This document shows, in pieces, positions 412-16,052 of a DNA stretch of 35,656 nt. This DNA is from Oscillospiraceae bacterium (GTDB lineage: Bacteria > Bacillota > Clostridia > Oscillospirales > Oscillospiraceae). Under the pieces are notes generated by a model, which saw only the letters and a list, made by a program, of their open reading frames with translations, was not told the origin of the DNA and ran no database searches. The number at the start of each line of letters is the position of its first letter. The stretch's first letter is position 1. The DNA is taken from positions 1-35,656 of the forward strand of contig JAFQUN010000072.1 in NCBI GenBank assembly GCA_017408525.1, read 5' to 3'. The translations under genes and the position numbers were made by a program.

Positions 412-1713
412 ATGGACTCTCTCTGGACAATGACGGCGCAGCCGCCGCAGTTTTCGGATCGGAAGCAGACCATGCACGCCGATGTCGCTGTGATCGGCGG
501 CGGCATGGCGGGTATTTTGTGCGCGTATTTTCTCGCGCGCGAGGGCGTTGACTGCCTCGTGCTGGAGGCGGAGCGTGTGTGCGGCGGTGTAAGCGCAAAC
601 ACGACGGCAAAGCTTACGTTTCAGCATGGGCTTTTCTGCGATACGCTTTTGCGCCGTTTCGGAAAGGAACGCGCGCAGATGTTTCTTGCCTCGCAGCGCG
701 AGGCGCTGTCTCAGTACCAAACGCTTTGCAGCGAGATAGACTGCGATCACAGCCAAACGTCAAGCGGCGTCTATGCGCTGCACGACCGCGCCGCCATCGA
801 GCGCGAGGTACGCGCGTTTGAAGCTCTCGGCATCGATGCACGGTTTGAGCCGTCGCTGCCCATTCCGCTTTCCATCGCAGGCGCGGTGTGCGTGGACGGA
901 CAGGCGCAGTTCCATCCGCTGAAATTTGCCTGGGCGCTCGCTAAAGATCTTCGCATTCGCGAAAATACACGCGCACTTGCACTCACAGACGATGGCGTGA
1001 TCACAAGCGACGGACCTGTTCGGGCAAAAAGCGTCATCGTTGCAACGCATTTCCCATTTCCGCGCTGGCGCGGGGCATACTTTCTCAAAATGCATCAGGA
1101 ACGCTCCTATGTCCTTGCGCTGGACAATGCTGCGGATGCAGGCGGAATGTATGTCGATATGGAGAAGGAAGGGCTGTCGTTTCGAAACCACGGCACAGCG
1201 CTGCTGCTTGGCGGTCTTTCACACCGCACCGGTGTGCAAAGCGCGGGGTGGGAGCCGCTGTGCGGCTTCGCAAAGGAGCATTACCCTGCCGCGCGCGAGG
1301 TGTGCCGTTGGGCGACGCAGGACTGCATCACACTCGATGCGGTCCCTTATATCGGGCGGCTGTCAAAGCGCACGCCGAATGTCTATGTCGCAGCAGGATT
1401 CAACAAATGGGGCATGAGCTCATCGATGGCCGCCGCCATTATTTTGCGCGACCTTCTGACGGGGCGCGGCAGCCCATACGCCGCGCTCTATGACCCGTCA
1501 CGTTCGATCATGCGCGCGCAGCTTTTTGCCAATGCGGCGCACTCGACGCTCGGACTTCTCACCCCCACCGTGCCTCGATGCGGCCACCTCGGCTGTGCGC
1601 TCAAATACAACAAGCAGGAACACACATGGGACTGTCCCTGCCACGGCTCGCGCTACTCGCAGCGCGGCGAGGTCGCGGAAGGTCCCGCGCAAAAAAAGAT
1701 ACACCGAAAATAA
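412..1713 (+). CDS. FAD-dependent oxidoreductase with C-terminal Rieske [2Fe-2S] domain
   Basis: This 433-residue cytosolic flavoprotein is of the DadA/glycine oxidase-like fold. An N-terminal dinucleotide-binding motif, GGGMAG (29-34), is followed by an acidic residue-ended strand typical of FAD binding. The C-terminus is a compact Rieske module with ligands C390-x-H392 and C408-x2-H411 (CGHLGC ... CPCHGSR). The fusion is a known clostridial architecture whose substrate is not established; it presumably passes electrons from the FAD substrate site to the iron-sulfur cluster or a partner. The ATG is preceded by a strong site (AGGAGGA, 401-407). The gene stands alone, followed by its own terminator, so context gives no pathway. 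The protein ends soon after the Rieske loop with a lysine-rich tail, as family members usually do, so it is not obviously truncated. Confidence 0.85.
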   Translation: MDSLWTMTAQPPQFSDRKQTMHADVAVIGGGMAGILCAYFLAREGVDCLVLEAERVCGGVSANTTAKLTFQHGLFCDTLLRRFGKERAQMFLASQREALSQYQTLCSEIDCDHSQTSSGVYALHDRAAIEREVRAFEALGIDARFEPSLPIPLSIAGAVCVDGQAQFHPLKFAWALAKDLRIRENTRALALTDDGVITSDGPVRAKSVIVATHFPFPRWRGAYFLKMHQERSYVLALDNAADAGGMYVDMEKEGLSFRNHGTALLLGGLSHRTGVQSAGWEPLCGFAKEHYPAAREVCRWATQDCITLDAVPYIGRLSKRTPNVYVAAGFNKWGMSSSMAAAIILRDLLTGRGSPYAALYDPSRSIMRAQLFANAAHSTLGLLTPTVPRCGHLGCALKYNKQEHTWDCPCHGSRYSQRGEVAEGPAQKKIHRK

Positions 1714-1727
1714 TGTTGGGAAATTTT

Positions 1728-1757
1728 GGCGGATATCGGAAGATATCCGTCTTTTTT
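1728..1757 (+). terminator. Rho-independent terminator
   Basis: An 8-bp perfect stem (CGGATATC, 1730-1737; GATATCCG, 1742-1749) with GGAA loop is followed by TCTTTTTTC. It separates the flavoprotein gene from the efflux operon. Confidence 0.85.
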
Positions 1758-1781
1758 CAAAAAATGTTTACATTTCATGCG

Positions 1782-1810
1782 TTGAAATAGATATGTATAT
1801 GGTGTAGAAT
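1782..1810 (+). promoter_or_regulatory. Sigma-A-type promoter of the efflux operon
   Basis: TTGAAA (1782-1787), a 17-nt spacer and TAGAAT (1805-1810) sit 35 nt before the adaptor gene and just after a terminator. A ribosome site (AAGGAGAA) follows at about 1831. Confidence 0.8.
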
Positions 1811-1844
1811 CTAAGCTGAATTTTGTTCGCAAGGAGAATAAGCG

Positions 1845-3500
1845 ATGAAACTTGTAACGAAAAAAGAGGATGCCGCCGCGGGTGTGAAAAAGCGCCCCTC
1901 ACGCCGCGCGGTGATACTCATCGTGCTTGCTGTGCTGGTTGGTGCAGTGGTGCTTTCTGCCGTTTTCGGACGGCGCGGCAATGACAGTGAGATCTCCTAT
2001 ACATACGAAACGGCGCAGCGCCGCTCCATCACAGCAACGCTCGTGGGAAACGGCATTTTGGAGCCTGCCGATTCCTACACGCTCAAAACGCTGCTGGAGG
2101 GCGATATCCTCACGGCAGGGTTTGAAGAGGGCGACATGATCGCAAAGGACGATATCCTCTATGAGATCGATCCCGCAAGCGCCGCTACGGGCGTTGAGCG
2201 CGCGGAGATCGCACGCGCGCAGAACCAGCGCCGCTATGATGATGCGCTCGAAGCGATCGCCGATCTCAACGTGACAGCATCTCTTTCGGGAACCATCAGC
2301 GGTCTGACCGTCCGTGCAGGCGACACCGTCAGCACGCAAACGCCCATCTGCACCATTGAGGACACCACGCAGCTGACGCTCACGGAGTATTACAGCGACG
2401 AGTACGCAGGGTCGATCTATCCCGGTATGCGTGCCGCTGTCTCTATCCCGTCGATGATGCTTGCCCTGGAAGGCACGGTCAAAAGCGTTTCCGGCGCAAA
2501 GCGCGTGAGCGAGACGGGCGTTTCCTGCTTTGCTGTGACTGTTTCCGTTGAAAATCCGGGTGCTGTCTCCACCGGCGCGGAGGCATCCGGCACGCTCGTC
2601 GGTGCATCCGGCATGATCTACCCCTCTGTTTCAGACGCAGACGGACTCGACGCGGCAAGCCGCACCGTTGTCTATCCCGATGTTGCCGGCACGGTCGACG
2701 CCGTGCGGATGCACGAGGGCGAGCGTGTGCGCGCAGGTGAGACCATCGTGCTTCTTTCCAACGAAACGCTCAGCGACAACCTTGCAAACGCTGCCGACGC
2801 GCTGCGTGATTCGGAGCTGTCACTTGAAAACCAGTACGACGCGCTCGATAACTACACCATCACCGCGCCGATCGACGGCACGATCGTCGACAAAGATGCA
2901 AAGGGCGGCGAAAAGGTCTCTGCCGGCGAAACGCTGTGCGTGATCTACGACCTTTCCTATCTTTCCGTCACACTCGATGTTGACGAGCTTGATATCAGCC
3001 AGGTCGCCGTCGGACAGCGTGCCACCGTCACGGCGGATGCCGTCGCGGGCATCGAGTACGAAGGTGTTGTCACACGCATCGGCATCAACGGAACGGCAGG
3101 CGCGGGCGTGACGACCTATCCTGTCACCGTGCGCGTCGACAAGACGGAGGGCCTTTTGCCCGGCATGAATGTCGACGTTTCCATCGTCGTCGCCGAAAGT
3201 GAAAACGCGCTCTCCGTTCCCGCGGCATCCATCCAGCGCGGCGATGTCATTTTTATCAAGACTGCCGATGGCACGACAGGCGAGGGCGCACCGGAGGGAT
3301 ACGCTGCCGTAAAGGTCACGACCGGAATCACCGACAGTGACTATGTCGAGATCACAGGCGGGCTTGACGACGGCGCCGAGATCGCCTATATCCCCGACGA
3401 TGTCGTTGCAAAGGACTTCCTCACGATGATGATGGGGATGAGTCAGGATATGATGAACGGCGATATGAGCGCGATGGGCGGTCCGCCGATGATGCCGTAA
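1845..3500 (+). CDS. MacA/HlyD-type efflux adaptor with duplicated lipoyl-barrel unit and Met-rich tail
   Basis: This 551-residue membrane-anchored adaptor probably couples the MacB-like ABC transporter encoded next to it to extracytoplasmic export. It has a basic N-terminus, one membrane anchor (about 21-41), then two successive lipoyl/beta-barrel units. The first is about 52-250. The second is about 272-460, with a short helical hairpin and the sequence ITAPIDGTIVDKDAKGGEKV. Most family members carry one such unit in about 350-450 residues, so the internal duplication explains the length. The last 30 residues are strikingly methionine-rich (TMMMGM, DMMNGDM, GGPPMMP). The gap to the ATPase gene is 12 nt, indicating one operon. 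Substrate is unknown; peptide or drug export is the usual guess, and metal contact by the tail is only a speculation. Confidence 0.85.
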   Translation: MKLVTKKEDAAAGVKKRPSRRAVILIVLAVLVGAVVLSAVFGRRGNDSEISYTYETAQRRSITATLVGNGILEPADSYTLKTLLEGDILTAGFEEGDMIAKDDILYEIDPASAATGVERAEIARAQNQRRYDDALEAIADLNVTASLSGTISGLTVRAGDTVSTQTPICTIEDTTQLTLTEYYSDEYAGSIYPGMRAAVSIPSMMLALEGTVKSVSGAKRVSETGVSCFAVTVSVENPGAVSTGAEASGTLVGASGMIYPSVSDADGLDAASRTVVYPDVAGTVDAVRMHEGERVRAGETIVLLSNETLSDNLANAADALRDSELSLENQYDALDNYTITAPIDGTIVDKDAKGGEKVSAGETLCVIYDLSYLSVTLDVDELDISQVAVGQRATVTADAVAGIEYEGVVTRIGINGTAGAGVTTYPVTVRVDKTEGLLPGMNVDVSIVVAESENALSVPAASIQRGDVIFIKTADGTTGEGAPEGYAAVKVTTGITDSDYVEITGGLDDGAEIAYIPDDVVAKDFLTMMMGMSQDMMNGDMSAMGGPPMMP

Positions 3501-3512
3501 GGGGGTGCGGAT

Positions 3513-4238
3513 ATGACCCCTTTGATCGAATTTCGTGATCTTTGCAAAACGTATGTGATGGGCGACACCATCGTGCGTGCTGCCGACCATATCTCCTTTT
3601 CCGTGAACGAAGGCGAGTTTGTCGCCATCGTCGGAAAGTCCGGCTCGGGCAAGTCGACGTGCATGAACATCATCGGCTGTCTCGACGTTCCGACCTCGGG
3701 AGAGTATCTGCTCGATGGGCGAAATGTCGGCGCGATGAGCAAAAACGAGCTTTCCGAGATCCGCAACGCAAAGCTCGGCTTCATCTTCCAGCAGTATAAT
3801 CTCCTCCCCAAGCTCGACCTTTTGGATAACGTTGCCGTGCCGCTCCTGTACGCGGGCAAGGGAAAGCGCGAGCGGCGCGCGACCGCGCAGAAAATGCTCG
3901 AGCGCGTGGGGCTTGGCGACAAGCTGCACAACCGTCCCAACCAACTCTCCGGCGGTCAGCAGCAGCGCGTTTCCATCGCGCGCGCGCTTTCAAACAGTCC
4001 CTCGGTCATTCTTGCCGACGAGCCGACCGGCGCGCTCGACTCACGCACAGGGCGCGAGGTTTTGGAGATGCTGCAGGCGCTGCACAAGGAAGGCAACACC
4101 GTCGTGCTCATCACACACGACAATTCCATTGCCGCGACGGCGCAGCGCATCATCCGTCTGGAGGACGGGCGCGTGACGTTCGATGGTCCGGCAAGCGACC
4201 CGAAGGCGGGCGTTGAGAAAGCAGGTGCGATGGCATGA
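3513..4238 (+). CDS. ABC transporter ATP-binding protein, MacB/LolD type
   Basis: This 241-residue nucleotide-binding subunit energises the neighbouring permease. Walker A is GKSGSGKST (41-49), the Q-loop is FQQYN (about 92-96), the signature is LSGGQQQR (145-152) and Walker B is VILADEP (165-171), followed by a switch histidine in THDNS. These are complete and canonical for the MacB/LolD/FtsE class. A purine-rich site (AAGGGGG) precedes the ATG. The stop overlaps the permease start in ATGA, which indicates translational coupling and a fixed stoichiometry. Confidence 0.92.
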   Translation: MTPLIEFRDLCKTYVMGDTIVRAADHISFSVNEGEFVAIVGKSGSGKSTCMNIIGCLDVPTSGEYLLDGRNVGAMSKNELSEIRNAKLGFIFQQYNLLPKLDLLDNVAVPLLYAGKGKRERRATAQKMLERVGLGDKLHNRPNQLSGGQQQRVSIARALSNSPSVILADEPTGALDSRTGREVLEMLQALHKEGNTVVLITHDNSIAATAQRIIRLEDGRVTFDGPASDPKAGVEKAGAMA

Positions 4239-5431
4239 GCTTTTCTGAAAGTTTATCGCTTGCCCTGCAAAACATCTGGGGCAGCAAGATGCGCTCGTTT
4301 CTCACGATGCTCGGCATCATCATCGGCATCGCGGCGGTCATGGTGATCGTCGGTCTTGGCAACGGCATGGAAAACTACATGACCGATATGTTCAAAACCA
4401 TCGGCACGAACATCTGCGAGGTGACGCTCACAGGGCGCGACACCTCACGCACCGCCTCCGTTGAGGATATGTATGAGGTTCTCCGTGACAACGCGCGGTA
4501 TTTTGACAATATGTCGCCGACCGTTTCCATGCGGGGGAGCATCAAGGTCGGCACGGAGGAACTGGATTACACCAACGCAACGGGCGTTGCCGAGACGTAT
4601 TTTGAGATCAAAAGCTATGAGATCGCCGAGGGGCGCGCGCTGCACTATATGGATATGGAAGCGCGCAGCCGCGTGTGCGTCATCGGAAGCTATGTCGCCA
4701 ATGAGTATTATGGCGGTCACGCTGTGGGCGAGACGATCCGCATAAACGGCGCGGAATTCACGATCGTCGGCGTGATGGCGCAGGAGGATGACGAGCCTGC
4801 AAGAGGCATGACCGATGACGTTGTGTATCTGCCTTACTCAACGGCGGCGCGTCTTTCCGGACTCGGCAGCGTTTCAAGCTACTCTTTTACCGTCATCGAC
4901 GAGGACAATGTTTCTATCGCCAAGACGGCGCTTGAAAATTCGCTCTATGACATTTTCCGCTCCGAGGATGCGTATATGGTCATCAGCATGACGCAGCTTT
5001 TGAGCGTGATGACCGATATGCTCAATGTTGTTATCACCATTTTGGCAGTCATTGCAGGCATTTCGCTCGTCGTTGGCGGCGTGGGCATCATGAACATCAT
5101 GCTTGTCTCCGTCACTGAGCGCACGCGTGAGATCGGCATTCGCAAGGCGCTCGGCGCGAAGGAAAGCTCCATCATGGTGCAGTTTGTTATCGAGGCAGCT
5201 GTCACGGCATGCATCGGCGGCATTTTCGGCATCATCGCGGGATTCGGATTCTCGTCGCTGGGGACGGTCATCATTACGAACATCCTCGGCTTTGATATGG
5301 AGGTCACACCGTCAGCGGGTTCGATCGTGCTTGCGGTCGGTGCATCCGCCGCCATCGGCGTTGCGTTCGGTTTTCTGCCCGCACGCAAGGCGGCGCTTCT
5401 CAATCCCATCGACGCGCTGCGCTATGAATAA
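4235..5431 (+). CDS. ABC transporter permease, MacB_PCD-FtsX type
   Basis: This 398-residue permease has the four-helix mechanotransmission layout of MacB. An N-terminal helix (SFLTMLGIIIGIAAVMVIVG, about 19-38) is followed by a large extracytoplasmic MacB_PCD domain (about 50-260). Three C-terminal helices form the FtsX domain (about 270-390), with the signature VTERTREIGIRKALGA. It ends DALRYE as usual for the family. Together with the adaptor and ATPase it forms an adaptor-dependent exporter adapted to a Gram-positive envelope. No regulator gene adjoins. A multi-hairpin repeat starts 12 nt after the stop codon. Confidence 0.92.
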   Translation: MSFSESLSLALQNIWGSKMRSFLTMLGIIIGIAAVMVIVGLGNGMENYMTDMFKTIGTNICEVTLTGRDTSRTASVEDMYEVLRDNARYFDNMSPTVSMRGSIKVGTEELDYTNATGVAETYFEIKSYEIAEGRALHYMDMEARSRVCVIGSYVANEYYGGHAVGETIRINGAEFTIVGVMAQEDDEPARGMTDDVVYLPYSTAARLSGLGSVSSYSFTVIDEDNVSIAKTALENSLYDIFRSEDAYMVISMTQLLSVMTDMLNVVITILAVIAGISLVVGGVGIMNIMLVSVTERTREIGIRKALGAKESSIMVQFVIEAAVTACIGGIFGIIAGFGFSSLGTVIITNILGFDMEVTPSAGSIVLAVGASAAIGVAFGFLPARKAALLNPIDALRYE

Positions 5432-7981: not shown

Positions 7982-7989
7982 GCAAAACA

Positions 7990-8018
7990 AAAGTCCTTCC
8001 GAATGGAAGGACTTTTTC
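7990..8018 (+). terminator. Rho-independent terminator after the SLH gene
   Basis: A 9-bp stem (AGTCCTTCC, 7992-8000; GGAAGGACT, 8005-8013) with loop GAAT is followed by TTTTCCTTTTT. Confidence 0.88.
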
Positions 8019-8099: not shown

Positions 8100-9512
8100 A
8101 TGGCAAAGAGTTACTACAAAGGATTTATCCCCTACGCGGCAGCGGCACTGATGGTCGGTGTTGTCGGCGGCTTTGCCGCAGTTTTGCCGCCCGCGCTTGT
8201 GCAGGATCTTGGACTTGCTTACAACAACACGACCTGGAGTACGCTTGCGCTTGCGATGTCGTCTGCCGCGTGCGCACCGATCCTCGGCAGGCTCGGCGAT
8301 GTGCTTGGGCGCAAAGTGACGCTTTTGCTCGGTATCGCTGTTTTTGCGATCGGCAATGCGCTCACCGCACTTTCAAGTACACTCATCCCTGTTTTGATCT
8401 CGCGCTTTATCGTCGGTATCGGCACAGCGGCGATCGCGCCGGTGATTCTGTCGTATATCGTCACGGAGTTTCCGCCCGAAGAGATGGCGCGCGGTTTTTC
8501 GCTCTATATGCTCATATCGAGCAGCGCCGTTATCTTCTCACCCACCATCGGCGGTTTTATCATTGAAAGTGCGTCGTGGCAGGCGATGGTTTGGCTGTGT
8601 GCGGCGATCGCACTGGGCGTTTTCATCTTTTGCTTTTTCTTCCGAGAAAACGCGCCGCGTCCGCGCGGGACACTCGCTGGCTTCGATGGTTTCGGCGCGC
8701 TTGCGATCCTCATTTTTTTCTCGCTCGCACTTTGCCTTCCCGCGTTCGGGCAGAATTTCGGCTGGAGCTCGCGCGCATTCTTACTGACGCTCGCAGCAAG
8801 CGTCGCGGCATTTGCAGGACTGCTCCTTGCTGAAAGCCGCGCAAAAAATCCTATCCTGCAAAAGAGCTTCCTCGCGCGGCGCGCATTCATCCTGCCCGTT
8901 CTCGCACTTTTCCTGACGCAGGGACTGATGCAGGCGAACATGACCAATACCATCGTCTTTGTGAACTACACCCAGCCGGAAAATACGATTATTTCAAGCT
9001 ATGCCATCTCCATCATGTACTTTGGAATGTCGCTCGGCTCAGTCTTTGCCGCGCCGCTTGCCGACCGCTATGAGCCGCGAAATGTCCTCACGATCACACT
9101 TGCCGCGACAGGTGCCGGCTGCGCATTGATGCTCGCCTTCACACCCGACGCGTCAGCACTGCTGCTGGCACTCTCGCTCGGTGTTCTGGGACTTGGTCTT
9201 GGCGGCAACGCGACGATCTTTTTGAAGGTCGTCCTCACGGGACTGGACGCGCGCTCCGCCGGTGCAGGAACGGGACCATACGGACTTTTCCGTGATCTTT
9301 CCGCGCCGTTCGGCGTTGCTGTTCTCGTGCCGCTTTTTACGAACAGCATCACAGCGCGCGTGCAGAGTACAGCGATATCCGATGCGCTTGCCGCAGTCGA
9401 AGCGATCCGGATGCTTGCTGTTGTGGAGCTTTTTTGTGTGGGGCTTGGCATTATACTCGTCCGTCTGCTGCCGCGTGTCCACGCGGCGGAACTTGGAAAG
9501 CAAGGAGGTTAA
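8100..9512 (+). CDS. MFS transporter, drug:H+ antiporter (DHA2)-like
   Basis: This 470-residue polytopic membrane transporter has about 14 hydrophobic segments, which matches the DHA2 branch of the major facilitator superfamily. The loop 2-3 motif is present as LGRLGDVLGRKVTLL, and the TM4-5 region has SRFIVGIGTAAIAPV. The start is the ATG after GGGAGGAAAAA; an upstream in-frame ATG at 7926 lies inside the SLH gene and is rejected. The stop is 5 nt before the dehydrogenase gene, whose ribosome site lies within this gene's 3' end, so the two are translated from one mRNA. That suggests transport of the dehydrogenase substrate or product, possibly a bile acid. The substrate is inference. Confidence 0.87.
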   Translation: MAKSYYKGFIPYAAAALMVGVVGGFAAVLPPALVQDLGLAYNNTTWSTLALAMSSAACAPILGRLGDVLGRKVTLLLGIAVFAIGNALTALSSTLIPVLISRFIVGIGTAAIAPVILSYIVTEFPPEEMARGFSLYMLISSSAVIFSPTIGGFIIESASWQAMVWLCAAIALGVFIFCFFFRENAPRPRGTLAGFDGFGALAILIFFSLALCLPAFGQNFGWSSRAFLLTLAASVAAFAGLLLAESRAKNPILQKSFLARRAFILPVLALFLTQGLMQANMTNTIVFVNYTQPENTIISSYAISIMYFGMSLGSVFAAPLADRYEPRNVLTITLAATGAGCALMLAFTPDASALLLALSLGVLGLGLGGNATIFLKVVLTGLDARSAGAGTGPYGLFRDLSAPFGVAVLVPLFTNSITARVQSTAISDALAAVEAIRMLAVVELFCVGLGIILVRLLPRVHAAELGKQGG

Positions 9513-9517
9513 AGGGC

Positions 9518-10315
9518 ATGCGCTTACAGGATAAAGTCGTGCTTGTGACGGCGTCGACGCGCGGGATCGGTCTTGCGTGCGCGGAGGCGTGCGCGAGAGA
9601 GGGTGCGCTCGTCTATATGGCGGCGCGGAATATGGAACGCGCGGCGGAAACGGCGCAGCGTCTTTGCAGCGAAGGATTGCGCGTTCGCTGCGTCTATAAC
9701 GACGCGGCGCAGCGCGATACGTTTGAAACGATGGTCGATGAGGTCGCCTCGCGTGAGGGGCGGCTCGATGTACTCGTCAACAACTTCGGAACATCGGACC
9801 CCGCCCGCGACCGCGACCTTATGCATACCGATATCGATGATTTTCTCCGAACGGTAACGATGAATCTGCAAAGCGTTTTTCTCGGAAGTCAGGCGGCGGC
9901 GCGCCGCATGGCGGCAAACGGCGGCGGAAGCATCATCAATATTTCCTCCGTCGGGGGCAGCGTGCCCGATATCTCACAAGTCGCCTACGGCACGAGCAAG
10001 GCGGCGATCAATTATCTCACAAAGCTCATCGCTGTGCAGGGCGCATCGCACGGTATCCGCTGCAACGCGGTGCTGCCGGGCATGACGGCGACCGAGGCGG
10101 TCAAATCGAGACTTACAGAGGACTTTCGCGCACTTTTCCTGCGCCACATCCCGCTCGGGCGCATGGGGCTTGCCGAGGAGATCGGCGCGGCGGTCGTCCA
10201 CTTTGCAAGTGACGAATCGGCGTACACCACGGGACAGATCCTCGCCGTCTCCGGCGGCTTCGGACTTGCAACACCGGTCTATGCGGATATGCTCGGAAAA
10301 GAGCGATCAACATAA
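9518..10315 (+). CDS. hdhA: Probable 7-alpha-hydroxysteroid dehydrogenase (SDR family)
   Basis: This 265-residue classical short-chain dehydrogenase has cofactor motif TASTRGIG (11-18) and NNFG (88-91). The catalytic residues are Asn116, Ser144, Tyr157 and Lys161 (YGTSK). The stretches NISSVGGSVPDISQ, RCNAVLPGMTAT and the C-terminal SGGFGLATPVY closely resemble clostridial 7-alpha-hydroxysteroid dehydrogenases as I remember them. Those enzymes oxidise the 7-alpha hydroxyl of cholate and chenodeoxycholate. Arg37 right after the second strand suggests NADP(H) preference. It is coupled to the MFS gene with a strong AGGAGG site. The start at 9518 fits family length; an earlier in-frame ATG would add 28 residues overlapping the MFS gene. 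A different SDR substrate cannot be excluded without an assay. Confidence 0.75.
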   Translation: MRLQDKVVLVTASTRGIGLACAEACAREGALVYMAARNMERAAETAQRLCSEGLRVRCVYNDAAQRDTFETMVDEVASREGRLDVLVNNFGTSDPARDRDLMHTDIDDFLRTVTMNLQSVFLGSQAAARRMAANGGGSIINISSVGGSVPDISQVAYGTSKAAINYLTKLIAVQGASHGIRCNAVLPGMTATEAVKSRLTEDFRALFLRHIPLGRMGLAEEIGAAVVHFASDESAYTTGQILAVSGGFGLATPVYADMLGKERST

Positions 10316-10316
10316 A

Positions 10317-10348
10317 GCGCCTGCCGCAGCGTATGCTGCGGCAGGCGC
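10317..10348. terminator. Hairpin between convergent genes
   Basis: A perfect 14-bp stem (GCGCCTGCCGCAGC / GCTGCGGCAGGCGC, loop GTAT) lies between the dehydrogenase and tetR-like stops. It lacks a long T-run on the plus strand, so it may act as a two-way mRNA end or 3' stabiliser rather than a classical terminator. Confidence 0.65.
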
Positions 10349-10353
10349 AAAAG

Positions 10354-10947
10354 CTATGCGTCTTTCCCAAAAACGCAATACTCAATGACCTCAGAGATCT
10401 CCTCAACGCTTTTTTGACAGCTATCTTTCAGCCACTCTGTGATGATCGCGGTGATACCGTTGAGGTAGAACATCATAACATAGCGCTGTTCATCCTTTGG
10501 ATAGCGGAACTTATCCAATATGGGATGAAAAATGTTGTCGAACAGCCTTTGAAAAATGGCAGCGGAATCGAATGTAGTCGGGTGTGACAATACCGCCGAA
10601 AAAAGCTGTTGGTTTTCTTTGATGAAGGAAAGATAAGGGTGCAGGTATTTTTCGTTGATAAAATTCAATTCCTGCAGGTCACGGTCTGCAAATTTCGAGG
10701 AAATGTCTTTTGTGTCTGCCGAAAAATAGGAGACAAAGGTGTCAAGCATATATACCACGGTCTCTTTGAGAAGATCACTTGTATTTTCATAGTGAAGATA
10801 AAATGTCGAGCGGTTGACGCCCGCTTCCTTGCAGATCTCGCTGACCGTTATATACGCAAAAGGCTTTTTCTCAAGCAGGGAAAGGAGTGCTTTATCAAAC
10901 CGCAAGGCTGTGTGGAAGTATTTGCTTTCTGCTTTATTCAAGGGCAT
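10354..10947 (-). CDS. TetR/AcrR family transcriptional regulator
   Basis: This 197-residue DNA-binding repressor has an N-terminal helix-turn-helix (ITVSEICKEAGVNRSTFYLHY, about 33-53). A mostly helical ligand-binding and dimerisation region follows and resembles the TetR_C_8-like group. The start at 10947 follows GGAGGAGG; an in-frame ATG at 11013 would overlap the upstream gene and is less likely. It is 19 nt downstream of a small membrane protein gene on the same strand, so they form a two-gene unit. It converges on the dehydrogenase. It may sense a small amphipathic ligand, and whether it controls the neighbouring exporter is unknown. Confidence 0.85.
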   Translation of the reverse strand: MPLNKAESKYFHTALRFDKALLSLLEKKPFAYITVSEICKEAGVNRSTFYLHYENTSDLLKETVVYMLDTFVSYFSADTKDISSKFADRDLQELNFINEKYLHPYLSFIKENQQLFSAVLSHPTTFDSAAIFQRLFDNIFHPILDKFRYPKDEQRYVMMFYLNGITAIITEWLKDSCQKSVEEISEVIEYCVFGKDA

Positions 10948-10966
10948 TCCCTCCTCCGCAGAGGAT

Positions 10967-11317
10967 TCACTGCTCGCTGATCTGGCGAGCAAGCTCCACG
11001 ATCTCGTAGGCATATTTTGCCTTGTCCTTTTCGATCTTTCTTCTATAGATCGGATAATTTACGCCGCAGCCGATAAAGCCGATGATTCCAAGCACGATGC
11101 CAAAGATCATATGCATCAGCCCATCACCTAAAACCTGCATGGAAAGACACATACCAAAACCGACCACAAGAGCCGAAGCAATGCCAAACGAATAGGTAAA
11201 TATGGTCGCGGGCAGCTTTGCCTTGTTGTCGAGCTTTTTCAAGGCGACGATTTTTGAATTGTCCTTCGGAGCATACTCCTTTGCGATGGATTCGGCGATG
11301 ATCTTGTCTGTGTTCAT
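10967..11317 (-). CDS. Small two-helix membrane protein of unknown function
   Basis: This 116-residue protein has a charged, Lys-rich N-terminal region (1-35). Two hydrophobic segments follow (about 38-62 and 67-88), then a basic C-terminal tail with YRRKIEKDKAK. Similar clostridial proteins exist, some labelled dihydropteridine reductase; nothing in this sequence supports that enzymatic name. It has an AGGAGG site before the ATG and is the first gene of a unit with the TetR-type regulator. It may be the regulator's target or an accessory membrane protein. Confidence 0.7.
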   Translation of the reverse strand: MNTDKIIAESIAKEYAPKDNSKIVALKKLDNKAKLPATIFTYSFGIASALVVGFGMCLSMQVLGDGLMHMIFGIVLGIIGFIGCGVNYPIYRRKIEKDKAKYAYEIVELARQISEQ

Positions 11318-11349
11318 AAAAAGAACCTCCTGTTTCTTTGTGTGATGTC

Positions 11350-11378
11350 ATTGTAAAGAAAAAAAGAGGCGCTTTGAA
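11350..11378 (-). promoter_or_regulatory. Likely sigma-A promoter for the small membrane protein/tetR unit
   Basis: On the minus strand TTCAAA (11373-11378), a 17-nt spacer and TACAAT (11350-11355) stand about 33 nt before the ATG. The -35 is a partial match. I see no clear operator palindrome. The rest of 11379-11528 is AT-richer sequence without a gene. Confidence 0.5.
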
Positions 11379-11528
11379 CAACATGATTTTGAAAAACTGT
11401 TGCTTTCAAGCATTAGCTGTCCATGCATTTTCTTTCACCTTATCATATTTTTCTCAAAACATCAATTACCGGAAAGCGGTCGAAGTATTCTGCGTCGGCA
11501 GGCAAGCGCAAAGGAGAGCAATGTCCTA

Positions 11529-11557
11529 TTGCGCTTTGGCGGCGAATACGATAAAAT
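11529..11557 (+). promoter_or_regulatory. Sigma-A-type promoter for the DUF1295 gene
   Basis: TTGCGC (11529-11534), a 17-nt spacer and TAAAAT (11552-11557) are followed by a short GC-rich hairpin (GCCGCG / CGCGGC, about 11563-11580), then AAGGAGG and the ATG at 11603. Confidence 0.6.
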
Positions 11558-11602
11558 AAAAGTGCCGCGTACCGCGCGGCAGAATAAGGAGGTCTTTACA
11601 TC

Positions 11603-12406
11603 ATGGTATTTCCCGCAAATTTTTGGCTTGTGACCGCCGTTGCGTTTCTCGTGAGCGCCATCGGCTTCAAAAATTACATCTGGTTTTTCTCCATCGGCTA
11701 CGGACTTTCCATCGCCGCCGAGGGTGTGCTGCTGCTCGCACTCTATGGCGAGAGTCTGACGCTTGGAACGGCGCTTTGCTGCGTCATTTTCGTCATCTAC
11801 GGTCTGCGCCTTGGCGGTTACCTCGCCTACCGTGAGGTGAAGCTCAAAAGCTATCATAAGCACCTTGCCGGCGAGATCAAGGACAGCAAGACCATCCCGC
11901 TGATCGCAAAGCTCTCCATCTGGTTTTTCTGCGCCGTTTTGTACGTTGCGATGGTCTGCCCCGTTTTTTACCGCCTGCACAACGGCAGCGGCAGCGACGC
12001 ATTTACATACGTTGGCGCTGCGCTGATGCTTATCGGCTTTTTGATGGAAACGGTCGCCGACGCGCAGAAGAAAGCGGCGAAGAAGACTGCGCCGCACCGC
12101 TTTGTCGACACGGGGCTGTACCGCTTTGTGCGCTGCCCGAACTACCTTGGCGAGCTGATCCTCTGGACGGGCGTGCTCGTTGTGGGCTGCGGTTCGCTTT
12201 CGGGCGCGGGACAGTGGGCGCTTGCCATCGTTGGATATCTGGGCATCCTCTATGTCATGTTCAGCGGCGCGCGGCGGCTTGAAATTCGCCAGAACAAAAC
12301 ATACGGCAATGACAGCGAGTATCAAAAATACAGCACCACCGTCCCCATTCTTCTGCCGTTTATCCCGCTCTACAGCGTGGAAAAACACAAGTGGCTCGTC
12401 GCATGA
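11603..12406 (+). CDS. DUF1295 membrane protein (steroid 5-alpha-reductase C-terminal-like)
   Basis: This 267-residue polytopic protein has about six or seven hydrophobic segments. A conserved C-terminal catalytic-type region reads DTGLYRFVRCPNYLGELILW (about 170-189) and continues to YRYQKYSTT-like residues near 245. The RxPNYxGE pattern is the hallmark of DUF1295 and the steroid 5-alpha-reductase/isoprenylcysteine methyltransferase superfamily, which bind NADPH or SAM and act on membrane lipids or steroids. DUF1295 members in other gut bacteria have been linked to steroid 5-alpha reduction, but family membership alone does not prove it. Its closeness to a hydroxysteroid dehydrogenase makes that reading worth testing. 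The following gene starts one base after its stop. Confidence 0.75.
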   Translation: MVFPANFWLVTAVAFLVSAIGFKNYIWFFSIGYGLSIAAEGVLLLALYGESLTLGTALCCVIFVIYGLRLGGYLAYREVKLKSYHKHLAGEIKDSKTIPLIAKLSIWFFCAVLYVAMVCPVFYRLHNGSGSDAFTYVGAALMLIGFLMETVADAQKKAAKKTAPHRFVDTGLYRFVRCPNYLGELILWTGVLVVGCGSLSGAGQWALAIVGYLGILYVMFSGARRLEIRQNKTYGNDSEYQKYSTTVPILLPFIPLYSVEKHKWLVA

Positions 12407-12407
12407 G

Positions 12408-13100
12408 ATGAAAAAGAAGCTTTACAAACGACTTGCGTGTGCGGCGCTGTGCCTTGCAGTGTTGACCGCTGCGGCGGTACTTGGTATCAACGGATATGTC
12501 AAAGCGGTCACAGCGGAGCGCATCCTCCCGCCGGAACAGGCGGCGGTGCTTTCCGATGTTGACTGCATACTTGTCCTTGGCTGCTACGTCCACGAGAGCG
12601 GGCGCCCGAGCGATATGCTCGGCGACCGTCTGCGCCGGGGCATCGAGCTGTATCATGCCGGCGCCGCGCCAAAACTCCTCATGAGCGGCGACCACGGGCG
12701 GACGGATTACAACGAGGTAAAGGCGATGAAGCTGCACGCGATGGAAGCGGGTGTCCCCTCCGAGGATGTTTTCATGGACCACGCAGGCTTTTCCACCTAC
12801 GAGAGTATCTTCCGCGCAAGGGATGTGTTTGCCGCGGACAAGATCATCATTGTCACGCAGAAGTACCACCTCCACCGCGCGCTCTACATCGCGCAGGCGC
12901 TGGGCGTGGAAGCGTACGGCGTCGCGTCCGGCTACCACACTTACGCGGGGCAGGCAGGGCGCGAGCTGCGCGAGATCCTCGCCCGCTGTAAGGATGTTGT
13001 CACAGGCATCGTAAAACCCGCGCCCACCTTTCTCGGTGAGGCGATCCCTGTGAGCGGAAACGGCGATCTTACAAACGACGAAGAACTGATCCTGTCATAA
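12408..13100 (+). CDS. SanA/YdcF-type DUF218 protein
   Basis: This 230-residue protein has an N-terminal membrane anchor (about 9-29) and one extracytoplasmic DUF218 domain. Visible motifs are ILVLGCYVHESGRPSDMLGDRL, the acidic LLMSGDHG and VTQKYHLHRALYIA. SanA of E. coli affects vancomycin exclusion at high temperature; YdcF-like proteins bind nucleotide-like ligands, and a cell-envelope role is usual. The ATG sits one base after the upstream stop with no independent ribosome site, so translation is coupled to the DUF1295 gene. A bidirectional terminator follows. Confidence 0.8.
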   Translation: MKKKLYKRLACAALCLAVLTAAAVLGINGYVKAVTAERILPPEQAAVLSDVDCILVLGCYVHESGRPSDMLGDRLRRGIELYHAGAAPKLLMSGDHGRTDYNEVKAMKLHAMEAGVPSEDVFMDHAGFSTYESIFRARDVFAADKIIIVTQKYHLHRALYIAQALGVEAYGVASGYHTYAGQAGRELREILARCKDVVTGIVKPAPTFLGEAIPVSGNGDLTNDEELILS

Positions 13101-13137: not shown

Positions 13138-13509
13138 CTATCTTTCAAACTTTTTCATGTGCGCCTTGACTGCATCAAACGCCTTATCGCTGATAACATG
13201 CTCGATACGGCACGCATCTTCGGCAGCGGTGACCTCGTCCACGCCGAGCGCGGTGAGCGCGGCTGTGAGCACCGTGTGGCGTTCGTAGATCTTCTCAGCG
13301 GTTTCCCTTCCCTTTTCCGTCAGACTCAAAAACCCGCTCTCGTCCGAAAGAAGATATCCACCCTCGCGCAGAAGTCCGACCGCGCGGCTGATGCTCGGCT
13401 TTGAATACCCCATCGCCTCCGCAATGTCGATGCTGCGCACACGCGCGCGCTCAGCTGCAAGACGGTAGATCGTTTCAAGATACATCTCAGCAGATTCCTG
13501 CAACTGCAT
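13138..13509 (-). CDS. DtxR/IdeR-type iron-dependent repressor (short form)
   Basis: This 123-residue regulator has a winged helix-turn-helix (RSIDIAEAMGYSKPSISRAV, 25-44) and a dimerisation domain but lacks the C-terminal SH3-like domain of full DtxR. Its metal ligands look like the iron-type set of DtxR/IdeR: Met9 (AEMYLETIY), Cys100, Glu103 and His104 (ACRIEHVIS). Manganese sensors of the MntR group usually have Glu at the Cys position. It diverges from feoA, with three IdeR-like palindromes near the feo genes, so it most likely represses feoAB when Fe(II) is sufficient. A site (GGGAGGG) precedes the ATG. Confidence 0.85.
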   Translation of the reverse strand: MQLQESAEMYLETIYRLAAERARVRSIDIAEAMGYSKPSISRAVGLLREGGYLLSDESGFLSLTEKGRETAEKIYERHTVLTAALTALGVDEVTAAEDACRIEHVISDKAFDAVKAHMKKFER

Positions 13510-13539
13510 CGCTCATCCCTCCCAATACGGTATAGGTTG

Positions 13540-13568
13540 ATTTTACCATGTGTACACGCTGTTTTCAA
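13540..13568 (-). promoter_or_regulatory. Sigma-A promoter of the DtxR gene
   Basis: Minus-strand TTGAAA (13563-13568), 17-nt spacer and TAAAAT (13540-13545). No GTTAGC palindrome overlaps it, so the repressor gene may not be autoregulated through that motif. Confidence 0.75.
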
Positions 13569-13601
13569 CGGCGATTTTTTTGCCAAAATTTCAAAAAACG
13601 C

Positions 13602-13630
13602 TTGACAGACGAAGACCCGCGAGGTAATAT
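13602..13630 (+). promoter_or_regulatory. Consensus sigma-A promoter of feoA
   Basis: A perfect TTGACA (13602-13607), a 17-nt spacer and TAATAT (13625-13630). The expected transcription start (about 13637) lies at the edge of the first palindrome. Confidence 0.88.
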
Positions 13631-13639
13631 ATGGATGTA

Positions 13640-13655
13640 GTTAGCAGCGGCTAAC
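13640..13655. promoter_or_regulatory. IdeR/DtxR-like operator 1
   Basis: The palindrome GTTAGC-AGCG-GCTAAC covers about +4 to +19 of the feoA transcript. It resembles the TTAGGTTAG/CTAACCTAA operator of the iron repressors DtxR and IdeR. Confidence 0.78.
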
Positions 13656-13672
13656 ATATTTTTTCAAGTACC

Positions 13673-13690
13673 GGTTAGCTTTAACTAACC
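13673..13690. promoter_or_regulatory. IdeR/DtxR-like operator 2
   Basis: GGTTAGC-TTTA-ACTAACC is the same 16-bp core as operator 1 with an extra flanking pair. It lies in the feoA leader, 26 nt before the ATG. Confidence 0.75.
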
Positions 13691-13716
13691 AAAATTTTTC
13701 CAAAGCAGGTGATCTT

Positions 13717-13929
13717 ATGGAGCTGTCGGTGGCGCAGGAAGGTAAGGAGTACATCATCCAAAAGATCGAAACAGACGATGCGGAGCTTGACGCGTTTTTG
13801 CTCTCGCTCGGCTGTTACGCCGGCGAGAAGATCACCGTTGTTTCGCGTCGGCGCGGCGGCTGCACCGTCGCCATCAAAGACGGCAGGTACAATATCGATA
13901 ACCAGCTTGCACGGGCGATCATTGTCTGA
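13717..13929 (+). CDS. feoA: FeoA, ferrous iron transport accessory protein
   Basis: A 70-residue SH3-like FeoA domain. It is a small cytosolic protein that works with FeoB in Fe(II) import. Typical features are LLSLGCYAGEKITVVSRR and a terminal strand NQLARAIIV. The length is normal. A weak AGGTGA site precedes the ATG. The gene has its own iron-regulated promoter and is followed by a hairpin and a further operator before feoB, so feoA may be partly transcribed alone. Confidence 0.92.
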   Translation: MELSVAQEGKEYIIQKIETDDAELDAFLLSLGCYAGEKITVVSRRRGGCTVAIKDGRYNIDNQLARAIIV

Positions 13930-13961
13930 CGGCGGCGCAAGAGGCATCGCCGTCTTCTTTT
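13928..13961 (+). terminator. Terminator or attenuator between feoA and feoB
   Basis: A GACGGCG (13928-13934) / CGCCGTC (13948-13954) stem is followed by TTCTTTT. It overlaps the feoA stop region and precedes operator 3, suggesting partial or full separation of feoA and feoB transcription. Confidence 0.6.
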
Positions 13962-13970
13962 CGCCCAGTA

Positions 13971-13986
13971 GTTAGCAACTGCTAAC
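13971..13986. promoter_or_regulatory. IdeR/DtxR-like operator 3 before feoB
   Basis: A perfect palindrome GTTAGC-AACT-GCTAAC. A possible -10 (CATAAT, about 14000) follows, but I find no good -35, so a separate feoB promoter is only suggested. Confidence 0.75.
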
Positions 13987-14039
13987 CAGTGGATCAAAGC
14001 ATAATTTGAGCTTTTTAAGATAACGAGGAGGAAAAAACA

Positions 14040-16052
14040 ATGCGCATCGCTTTTGCAGGAAATCCCAACAGCGGGAAAACCACCATGTACAACGCCCTCA
14101 CAGGACGCAGCGAAAAGGTCGGCAACTGGGCAGGTGTGACCGTTTCCAAAAAGGAAGCGCCCATCAAGGACTCCTACGCCCACGGGCAGGAGCTTGCTGC
14201 CGTCGACCTTCCTGGTGCGTACTCCATGTCGCCATTCACATCGGAGGAGGGCATCACGAGCGGCTACATCAAAAACGAGCGCCCCGACGTCATCATCAAC
14301 ATCGTCGATGCAACGAACCTCAGCCGCTCGCTCTTTTTCACGACGCAGCTTCTGGAGCTTGGCATCCCCACTGTCGTCGCGCTCAACAAGCACGATGTGA
14401 ACGAAAAGAAGCAGACTGTGATCGACACAAAGTTGCTGTCCGAAAAACTGGGCTGCCCTGTTGTGAACACAACCTCGACGACGAGCGAGGGTCTTTCGGA
14501 AGTTGTTGAGGCAGCGGCAGCGCTGTACGGAAAAGAGCAATCAGCGCCCTACACGCAGGGAAACGTCGATCTTAGCGACAAGAGCGCTGTGGAGGCTGCC
14601 GACCGCGCGCGCTTTGCGTTTGTAAACGAGCTTGTCGCCGCCGTGGAAACGCGAAAAGTCCTCACGAAGGACAAAAACGCGCAGGATGACATTGACAATA
14701 TTCTGACGCATCCTGTCGCGGGACTTCTCATTTTTGCAGTTGTCATGTTCCTCGTCTTCCACATCTCGCAGTCCGACGGGCGGCTGGGACTTGGCATCTA
14801 TCTTGCCGACCTTCTCGTCGGCTGGCTGGAAGCATTCCAAGGGTGGGTCGCCGGCGCGGTTTCGACTGCCTCGCCCGTATTGCAGGCACTTCTCGTTGAC
14901 GGCGTGATCGGCGGTGTCGCCGCTGTTGTCGGATTTTTGCCGCTTGTGATGGTCATGTATTTTTTGATCGCCCTTTTGGAGGACTGCGGCTATATGGCGC
15001 GCGCGACGGTCGTGCTCGATCCCATTTTCAAAAAGGTCGGTCTTTCGGGGCGCTCTGTCATCCCGTTCGTCATCGGCACTGGCTGCGCCATTCCGGGCGT
15101 GATGGCGTGCCGCACCATCCGAAACGAGCGCGAGCGCCGTGCGACGGCGATGCTTACGCCGTTTATGCCCTGCGGCGCGAAGCTGCCGGTCATCGCGCTT
15201 TTTGCCGGTGCGTTCTTCGGCGACGCAAGCTGGGTGGGTACGCTGATGTATTTTGTCGGCATCGCGATGATCCTGCTCGGTGCGCTGCTTGTCAATGTGA
15301 TCGCAGGACACAAGGCACGCAAGTCCTTTTTCATCATCGAGCTTCCCGAATATAAGCTCCCTTCCGTGAAGCGCGCGTTTATCTCCATGTGCAGCCGCGG
15401 CTGGGCGTATATCGTCAAGGCCGGTACGGTGATCCTCGTTTGCAACACCGTCGTGCAGCTCATGCAGAGCTTTACATGGAGCTTTGCCGTTGCGGAAAAT
15501 GCCGCAGATTCCATCCTTGCGTCCGTTGCATCGCCCATTGCGTATCTGCTCGTTCCCATCGTGGGCGTTGCATCCTGGCAGCTTGCCGCGGCGGCTGTGA
15601 CCGGCTTTATCGCAAAGGAAAATGTCGTCGGAACGCTTGCCGTGTGCTTCGTGGGACTTGAAAATCTCATCGACACGGAAGAACTTGCCCTGATGGAAGG
15701 CGCAGGTGCGGAGGTCGCCGGCGTCATGGCGATCACGAAGGTCGCGGCTCTTGCGTATTTGATGTTCAACCTCTACACGCCGCCGTGCTTCGCGGCGCTC
15801 GGCGCGATGCGCTCGGAGATCGGTGCGCGCAAGTGGTTCTGGGGCGGCGTTGCACTCCAATTTGCGGCAGGCTATACGCTCTCCTACCTTGTCTACACCG
15901 TCGGTACACTTTTGACCTACCCTGCCGCGCTGAATATTGGCGCTGCACTCGCAGGGCTTGGCGTTATTCTCGTCATCGCCGGTATCATCGTGTATATTGC
16001 ACGAAAAAATACGCGCGCACACTCTGCGGCATATGCGCTGGGTGCGGCGTAA
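14040..16052 (+). CDS. feoB: FeoB ferrous iron transporter
   Basis: This 670-residue inner-membrane Fe(II) transporter has an N-terminal G domain: G1 GNPNSGKT (7-14), G3 DLPG (56-59) and G4 NKHD (116-119). The TSEEGI segment of the helical region is visible. The C-terminal membrane part has paired Gate motifs, including the conserved GTGCAIPGVMACRT and MPCGAKLPV segments with their cysteines. The length is normal for the compact clostridial form. GAGGAGGAAAA precedes the ATG. It is followed 15 nt later by a small cysteine-rich membrane protein that probably acts with it. Regulation by the adjacent DtxR-type protein is inferred from the operators. Confidence 0.95.
   Translation: MRIAFAGNPNSGKTTMYNALTGRSEKVGNWAGVTVSKKEAPIKDSYAHGQELAAVDLPGAYSMSPFTSEEGITSGYIKNERPDVIINIVDATNLSRSLFFTTQLLELGIPTVVALNKHDVNEKKQTVIDTKLLSEKLGCPVVNTTSTTSEGLSEVVEAAAALYGKEQSAPYTQGNVDLSDKSAVEAADRARFAFVNELVAAVETRKVLTKDKNAQDDIDNILTHPVAGLLIFAVVMFLVFHISQSDGRLGLGIYLADLLVGWLEAFQGWVAGAVSTASPVLQALLVDGVIGGVAAVVGFLPLVMVMYFLIALLEDCGYMARATVVLDPIFKKVGLSGRSVIPFVIGTGCAIPGVMACRTIRNERERRATAMLTPFMPCGAKLPVIALFAGAFFGDASWVGTLMYFVGIAMILLGALLVNVIAGHKARKSFFIIELPEYKLPSVKRAFISMCSRGWAYIVKAGTVILVCNTVVQLMQSFTWSFAVAENAADSILASVASPIAYLLVPIVGVASWQLAAAAVTGFIAKENVVGTLAVCFVGLENLIDTEELALMEGAGAEVAGVMAITKVAALAYLMFNLYTPPCFAALGAMRSEIGARKWFWGGVALQFAAGYTLSYLVYTVGTLLTYPAALNIGAALAGLGVILVIAGIIVYIARKNTRAHSAAYALGAA

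Follow-up and report, generated by a model that had tools for sequence, protein, structure and literature searches.

A conserved transporter-dehydrogenase gene pair, predicted to act on bile acids, in gut Clostridia and its redox-defence neighbours in related genomes

The 35,656-nucleotide contig JAFQUN010000072.1 of an Oscillospiraceae bacterium (assembly GCA_017408525.1, 1.64 Mb and 78% complete), hereafter the window, carries two adjacent genes coding for a transporter of the major facilitator superfamily (MFS) and a short-chain dehydrogenase/reductase (SDR) predicted to be a 7α-hydroxysteroid dehydrogenase (HSDH; Table 1). Comparison with related genomes indicates that these two genes are a real, conserved transporter-HSDH operon. 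Our analysis suggests, with a probability that we put at roughly 60%, that the pair is a two-gene unit in which a DHA2-like transporter and an NADP(H)-type 7α-HSDH would detoxify bile acids by an 'oxidise and export' route.

Searches with the transporter alone, in samples of 394 genomes of the order, 391 of the class and 209 of the phylum, recovered five orthologues outside the window with at least 52% identity (G186, G543, G518, G701 and G784), and in 5/5 of these an HSDH gene lies directly 3' of the transporter gene. The search also returned one relative of 44% identity (G332; L153, 5013-7052 and 8034-8621) with no HSDH gene after it; there a ferritin gene follows within 25 nt and a rubrerythrin gene lies near. 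The phylum-wide sample returned the transporter from the window alone, and no transporter match was found in plasmids. Loci found transporter-first and loci reached through HSDH searches together make 11 MFS-HSDH loci, all in gut Clostridia (the window, L057, L065, L070, L071, L072, L085, L177, L178, L179 and L180). Junction measurements cover ten of these loci (all but L071); there the two genes overlap by up to 17 nt or lie up to 23 nt apart, and the adjacency is far above chance. The pairing seems to have a single origin, since the HSDHs of these loci form one group in the phylogenetic tree (11 sequences, support 88/87). The original prediction had described exporter and dehydrogenase genes as translationally adjacent, 5 nt apart, and this spacing is confirmed in the window and the linkage proves to be strongly conserved. 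Two hairpins bracket the pair (Table 1).

Our sequence analysis of the SDR makes it a likely 7α-HSDH of the C. absonum type, as predicted from the family threshold, the residues and the tree. Against the NCBIfam 7α-HSDH equivalog NF049979 it reaches 401.6 bits (cut-off 350), a threshold exceeded in only 12 of the 394 genomes of the order, and it shares 50% identity with the C. absonum enzyme (PDB 5EPO), whose residue roles have been described, with Arg38 reported as the key determinant (PMC4785404). By alignment the catalytic residues are conserved as Ser144-Tyr157-Lys161 (Thr145-Tyr158-Lys162 in C. absonum, so that serine stands in place of threonine), and of the three arginines for the 2'-phosphate of NADP (16, 38 and 194 in C. 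absonum) the two main ones are kept as Arg15 and Arg37. A maximum likelihood tree of 62 SDRs places the window protein and the C. absonum enzyme in one clade of 33 sequences (support 100/100), which also takes in C. difficile, C. nigeriense, Holdemania, Beduini and many metagenome-assembled genomes from the gut, with E. coli HdhA outside it. The resemblance to clostridial 7α-HSDHs that had been read from the sequence at the outset is thus upheld, the phylogeny having placed the SDR in the clade of the characterised C. absonum enzyme. The two genes fetched from the C. absonum-like branch (L078 and L082) differ from the window in context, having no such MFS gene next to them. HSDHs of a group of same-family genomes (G022 group) are nearly identical to one from an 'uncultured Flavonifractor', which makes Oscillospiraceae the probable family. 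In three genomes of one genus (L066, 5610-7487; L067, 6999-8876; L068, 4631-6499) a 7α-HSDH gene without MFS is followed by one for an aldo/keto-reductase-like protein, identified by eye, with cysteine-rich ferredoxin-type motifs, and at L084 an HSDH gene without MFS has a divergent ferritin gene.

The transporter is modelled with 14 helices (AlphaFold2, mean predicted local distance difference test score, pLDDT, 84.9), and the closest solved folds are EmrB, EfpA, a homologue of Rv1410, QacA and NorC. The model reaches a TM-score of about 0.8 to EmrB, EfpA and QacA, with 17-20% identity over the fold match. The core of antiporter motif C, GP..GG, is kept in all ten aligned relatives. On its model the protein would work as DHA2 pumps do, lying outside the curated EmrB subfamily and differing from the known DHA2 pumps in its pairing with an HSDH. 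Export of bile acids is favoured over import because the nearest folds of this 14-helix protein are efflux pumps.

In the proposed mechanism bile acids would enter the cell, where the HSDH would reversibly oxidise the 7α-hydroxyl to the 7-oxo group with NADP+, and the co-translated, probably proton-coupled transporter would expel the bile acid, either as the 7-oxo product or as the substrate, protecting the cell. The substrate, the direction of transport, the direction of the reaction in vivo and any co-regulation are what we infer here. Several observations weigh against this interpretation. The transporter scores 107 bits against TIGR00711 (EmrB subfamily), where the cut-off is 230.2, and is not filed as a member; its own motif C is degenerate (SPTIGG); and the pairing of the genes carries no information on transport direction. 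In the dehydrogenase the third NADP arginine (Arg194 in C. absonum) is replaced by Glu193. Neither a bile salt hydrolase match nor an AhpF homologue was found in the window genome (78% complete). A bile salt hydrolase with a strong match is present in 5 of the 7 MFS-HSDH carriers tested, on a background of 108/394 genomes in the order; as a partner of the unit it was set aside as a weak candidate, given that background and the window genome without a match.

In the relatives of the window, the pair has neighbours of a different kind. Genes for AhpC, an AhpF homologue and/or desulfoferrodoxin are divergently adjacent to the transporter gene in 6 of the 10 informative MFS-HSDH loci (L065, L070, L071, L085, L177 and L178; L057 is cut by a contig end and is not informative), and the same genes occur in none of the fetched flanks of the 21 HSDH loci without MFS. 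At L065 the AhpC exceeds the TIGR03137 cut-off and the AhpF homologue that of TIGR03143. The desulfoferrodoxin, with 101 bits, falls short of the 147 bits set as its curated cut-off. These are the same ordinary defence genes as in other anaerobes, differing in that they adjoin a bile-acid HSDH and a transporter gene in six relatives and are absent from the window. Pairwise identities of the five proteins of the block co-vary from locus to locus, the pattern expected of a block that moves as a whole, so the six loci are not six independent events. In the intergenic region shared by the divergent genes at L177 and L178, 9-bp half-sites form a perfect inverted pair, AGTATAACC...GGTTATACT, that spans 46 bp and includes outward TATACT boxes. 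A related half-site pair is present at L071 (spacing at the three loci about 46-48 bp), and L085 has a weaker pair of a quality often reached by shuffled sequence. These inverted half-sites may represent a shared divergent promoter in the relatives, and no convincing PerR-like box was seen in the divergent intergenic regions. The redox neighbourhood is a property of the lineage rather than of the window, which is itself without the redox half, because the window genome and G005, of the same family, lack an AhpF homologue. A limited literature search found no paper describing linkage of an HSDH to AhpC or desulfoferrodoxin genes.

In such relatives the unit would form part of a combined response to bile and oxygen stress, probably co-regulated with the peroxide and superoxide defence, either as the two stresses coincide or as the HSDH supplies reducing power. 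A stronger version, in which the NADP-dependent 7α-HSDH is itself part of the oxygen and peroxide defence of this lineage, passing hydride from bile acids to the co-regulated AhpC, AhpF homologue and desulfoferrodoxin while the transporter removes the 7-oxo product, strikes us as doubtful. An HRRxxxR motif in thioredoxin reductases marks the use of NADPH; the AhpF homologue reads [IV]R.[DE]DF[ST]C at this position, and the supply of reducing power is weakened as an explanation because this nucleotide motif gives no clear NADPH mark.

Transport may also run the other way, with the MFS protein importing bile acids for the HSDH as BaiG does, so that 7-oxo bile acids serve as an electron sink or NADPH is gained from 7α-hydroxy bile acids. 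In the bai operon of Clostridium scindens, too, an MFS gene adjoins genes for bile-acid SDRs (BaiA), and the operon's BaiG imports bile acids and is encoded together with enzymes that act on them (PMC7996314); in other bai clusters its place is taken by an MFS protein only 22% identical to BaiG (PMC8623032), so that there are precedents for MFS importers of bile acids beside such enzymes. Compared by description with BaiG and its operon, the window unit differs in having two genes, a 7α-HSDH enzyme and an MFS fold closest to efflux pumps. The efflux folds, as well as the motif C core in the relatives, argue against import, as does the absence of recognisable bai genes from the annotated surroundings of the pair in the window and the fetched relatives (whole genomes were not searched for bai), and we consider import unlikely. 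Quite unlikely is a change of substrate in the MFS-linked HSDH clade, towards another hydrophobic alcohol or ketone, for instance a redox-cycling molecule from plants or microbes. Xenobiotics are frequent cargo of DHA2-like pumps, and such a change would explain the oxidative-stress neighbours; the MFS-linked HSDHs form a group of their own that shares about 50% identity with the characterised enzyme, and at two loci a transporter or HSDH gene without its partner lies beside ferritin or rubrerythrin genes. On the other side, all members tested score over the 7α-HSDH equivalog cut-off with the catalytic residues kept, the named relatives are gut bacteria, and the bile salt hydrolase matches of the carriers point towards bile, though against the background in the order.

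The original prediction went beyond the pair and proposed a joint action of exporter, HSDH, TetR regulator and DUF1295 reductase on bile acids or steroid hormones. The four genes do exist as described, within 4.3 kb and with the DUF1295 gene 1.3 kb from that of the SDR, and the DUF1295 protein is related in sequence to steroid 5α-reductases, scoring 113 bits against Pfam DUF1295, the better match, and 28.4 bits against Pfam Steroid_dh (cut-off 22.6), a weak match over residues 101-195 only. The proposal had left out the 116-aa gene, the DUF218/SanA-like gene and two strong hairpins, one of which separates the HSDH gene from tetR. Neither TetR nor DUF1295 is encoded near the pair in any of the ten other MFS-HSDH loci, so the four genes are not conserved together and linkage with the DUF1295 gene is not kept; at L065 alone a remote relative (35%) of the 116-aa gene lies about 3 kb from the pair. 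In 6/6 other genomes of the order (L194-L199) the tetR orthologue directly follows the 116-aa gene (61-75% identity), the product of which has no Pfam match, and no HSDH gene is present in the stretches fetched around these orthologues. Sequence context thus places tetR in a conserved two-gene operon of its own. The DUF1295 gene stands 1 nt before the DUF218 gene, and its one close orthologue among 59 relatives (G004) shares no neighbour with the window or the pair. A structure model of the DUF1295 protein (mean pLDDT 50) was too poor for its active site to be judged and was not used. On this comparative context the four-gene steroid cluster is rejected as highly improbable, and the preferred reading stays with the two-gene unit.

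Table 1. Features of the window around the transporter-HSDH pair, and the divergent redox-defence genes (AhpF homologue, AhpC and/or desulfoferrodoxin) at six related loci
Feature	Sequence	Coordinates	Strand	Remarks
Hairpin	Window	7989..8016		12-bp perfect stem with T-runs on both strands, in the gap that separates an S-layer-domain gene from the MFS gene; probably a terminator; limits the unit on its 5' side
14-helix DHA2-like MFS transporter, 470 aa	Window	8100..9512	+	Pfam MFS_1; NCBIfam EmrB (below cut-off); AlphaFold2 model; fold search; alignment with ten relatives
7α-Hydroxysteroid dehydrogenase (predicted), SDR, 265 aa	Window	9518..10315	+	NF049979; 5EPO match; tree; residues
Hairpin, strong, 14-bp stem	Window	10317..10348		Lies where the HSDH and tetR genes converge; limits the unit on its 3' side
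TetR-family regulator	Window	10354..10947	-	Convergent with the SDR gene; outside the unit; follows the 116-aa gene in a conserved two-gene operon
116-aa membrane protein	Window	10967..11317	-	Directly upstream of tetR, same strand; outside the unit; first gene of that operon
DUF1295 membrane protein (steroid-5α-reductase-like fold family)	Window	11603..12406	+	Outside the unit
DUF218/SanA-like gene	Window	12408..13100	+	1 nt 3' of the DUF1295 gene
AhpF homologue, AhpC, desulfoferrodoxin genes	L065	3037-5674		Divergent to the pair
AhpF homologue, AhpC, desulfoferrodoxin genes	L070	2228-4434		Divergent to the pair
AhpF homologue, AhpC, desulfoferrodoxin genes	L071	1947-4555		Divergent to the pair
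AhpF homologue, AhpC, desulfoferrodoxin genes	L085	1961-4562		Divergent to the pair
AhpF homologue, AhpC, desulfoferrodoxin genes	L177	4371-6604		Divergent to the pair
AhpF homologue, AhpC, desulfoferrodoxin genes	L178	1-937		Divergent to the pair

Elsewhere in the window, genes for a DtxR/MntR-family regulator, FeoA and FeoB (13138-16052) lie some 3 kb beyond the 3' end of the pair and are ordinary iron/manganese genes. A gene for an FAD-dependent oxidoreductase with a C-terminal Rieske domain is followed by an HlyD, ABC and MacB-type efflux set (412-5431).

Among known systems, the desABCD operon likewise has an HSDH gene (encoding the 20α-HSDH DesC) beside a putative steroid transporter gene (DesD; PMC7996314). 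Compared by description, the window unit differs in being without desmolase genes and in having an HSDH of the bile-acid rather than the cortisol type.

What makes the unit interesting is chiefly the redox neighbourhood of its relatives, which the window itself is missing. According to a review, it is unclear what many bile-acid HSDHs do for the bacteria that make them; they may provide hydride for the detoxification of oxygen close to the mucosa, or detoxify bile acids (PMC7996314). The bacterial bile-acid transporters in the papers cited here are the importer BaiG and its putative stand-ins, and the MFS protein adds a candidate for the export of (7-oxo-)bile acids. Being conserved and, in several lineages, divergent to redox-defence genes, the transporter-HSDH unit provides a defined genetic system in which both suggested roles could be tested, and a part for the HSDH in oxygen and peroxide defence, if true, would give the HSDHs of gut bacteria a concrete physiological role.

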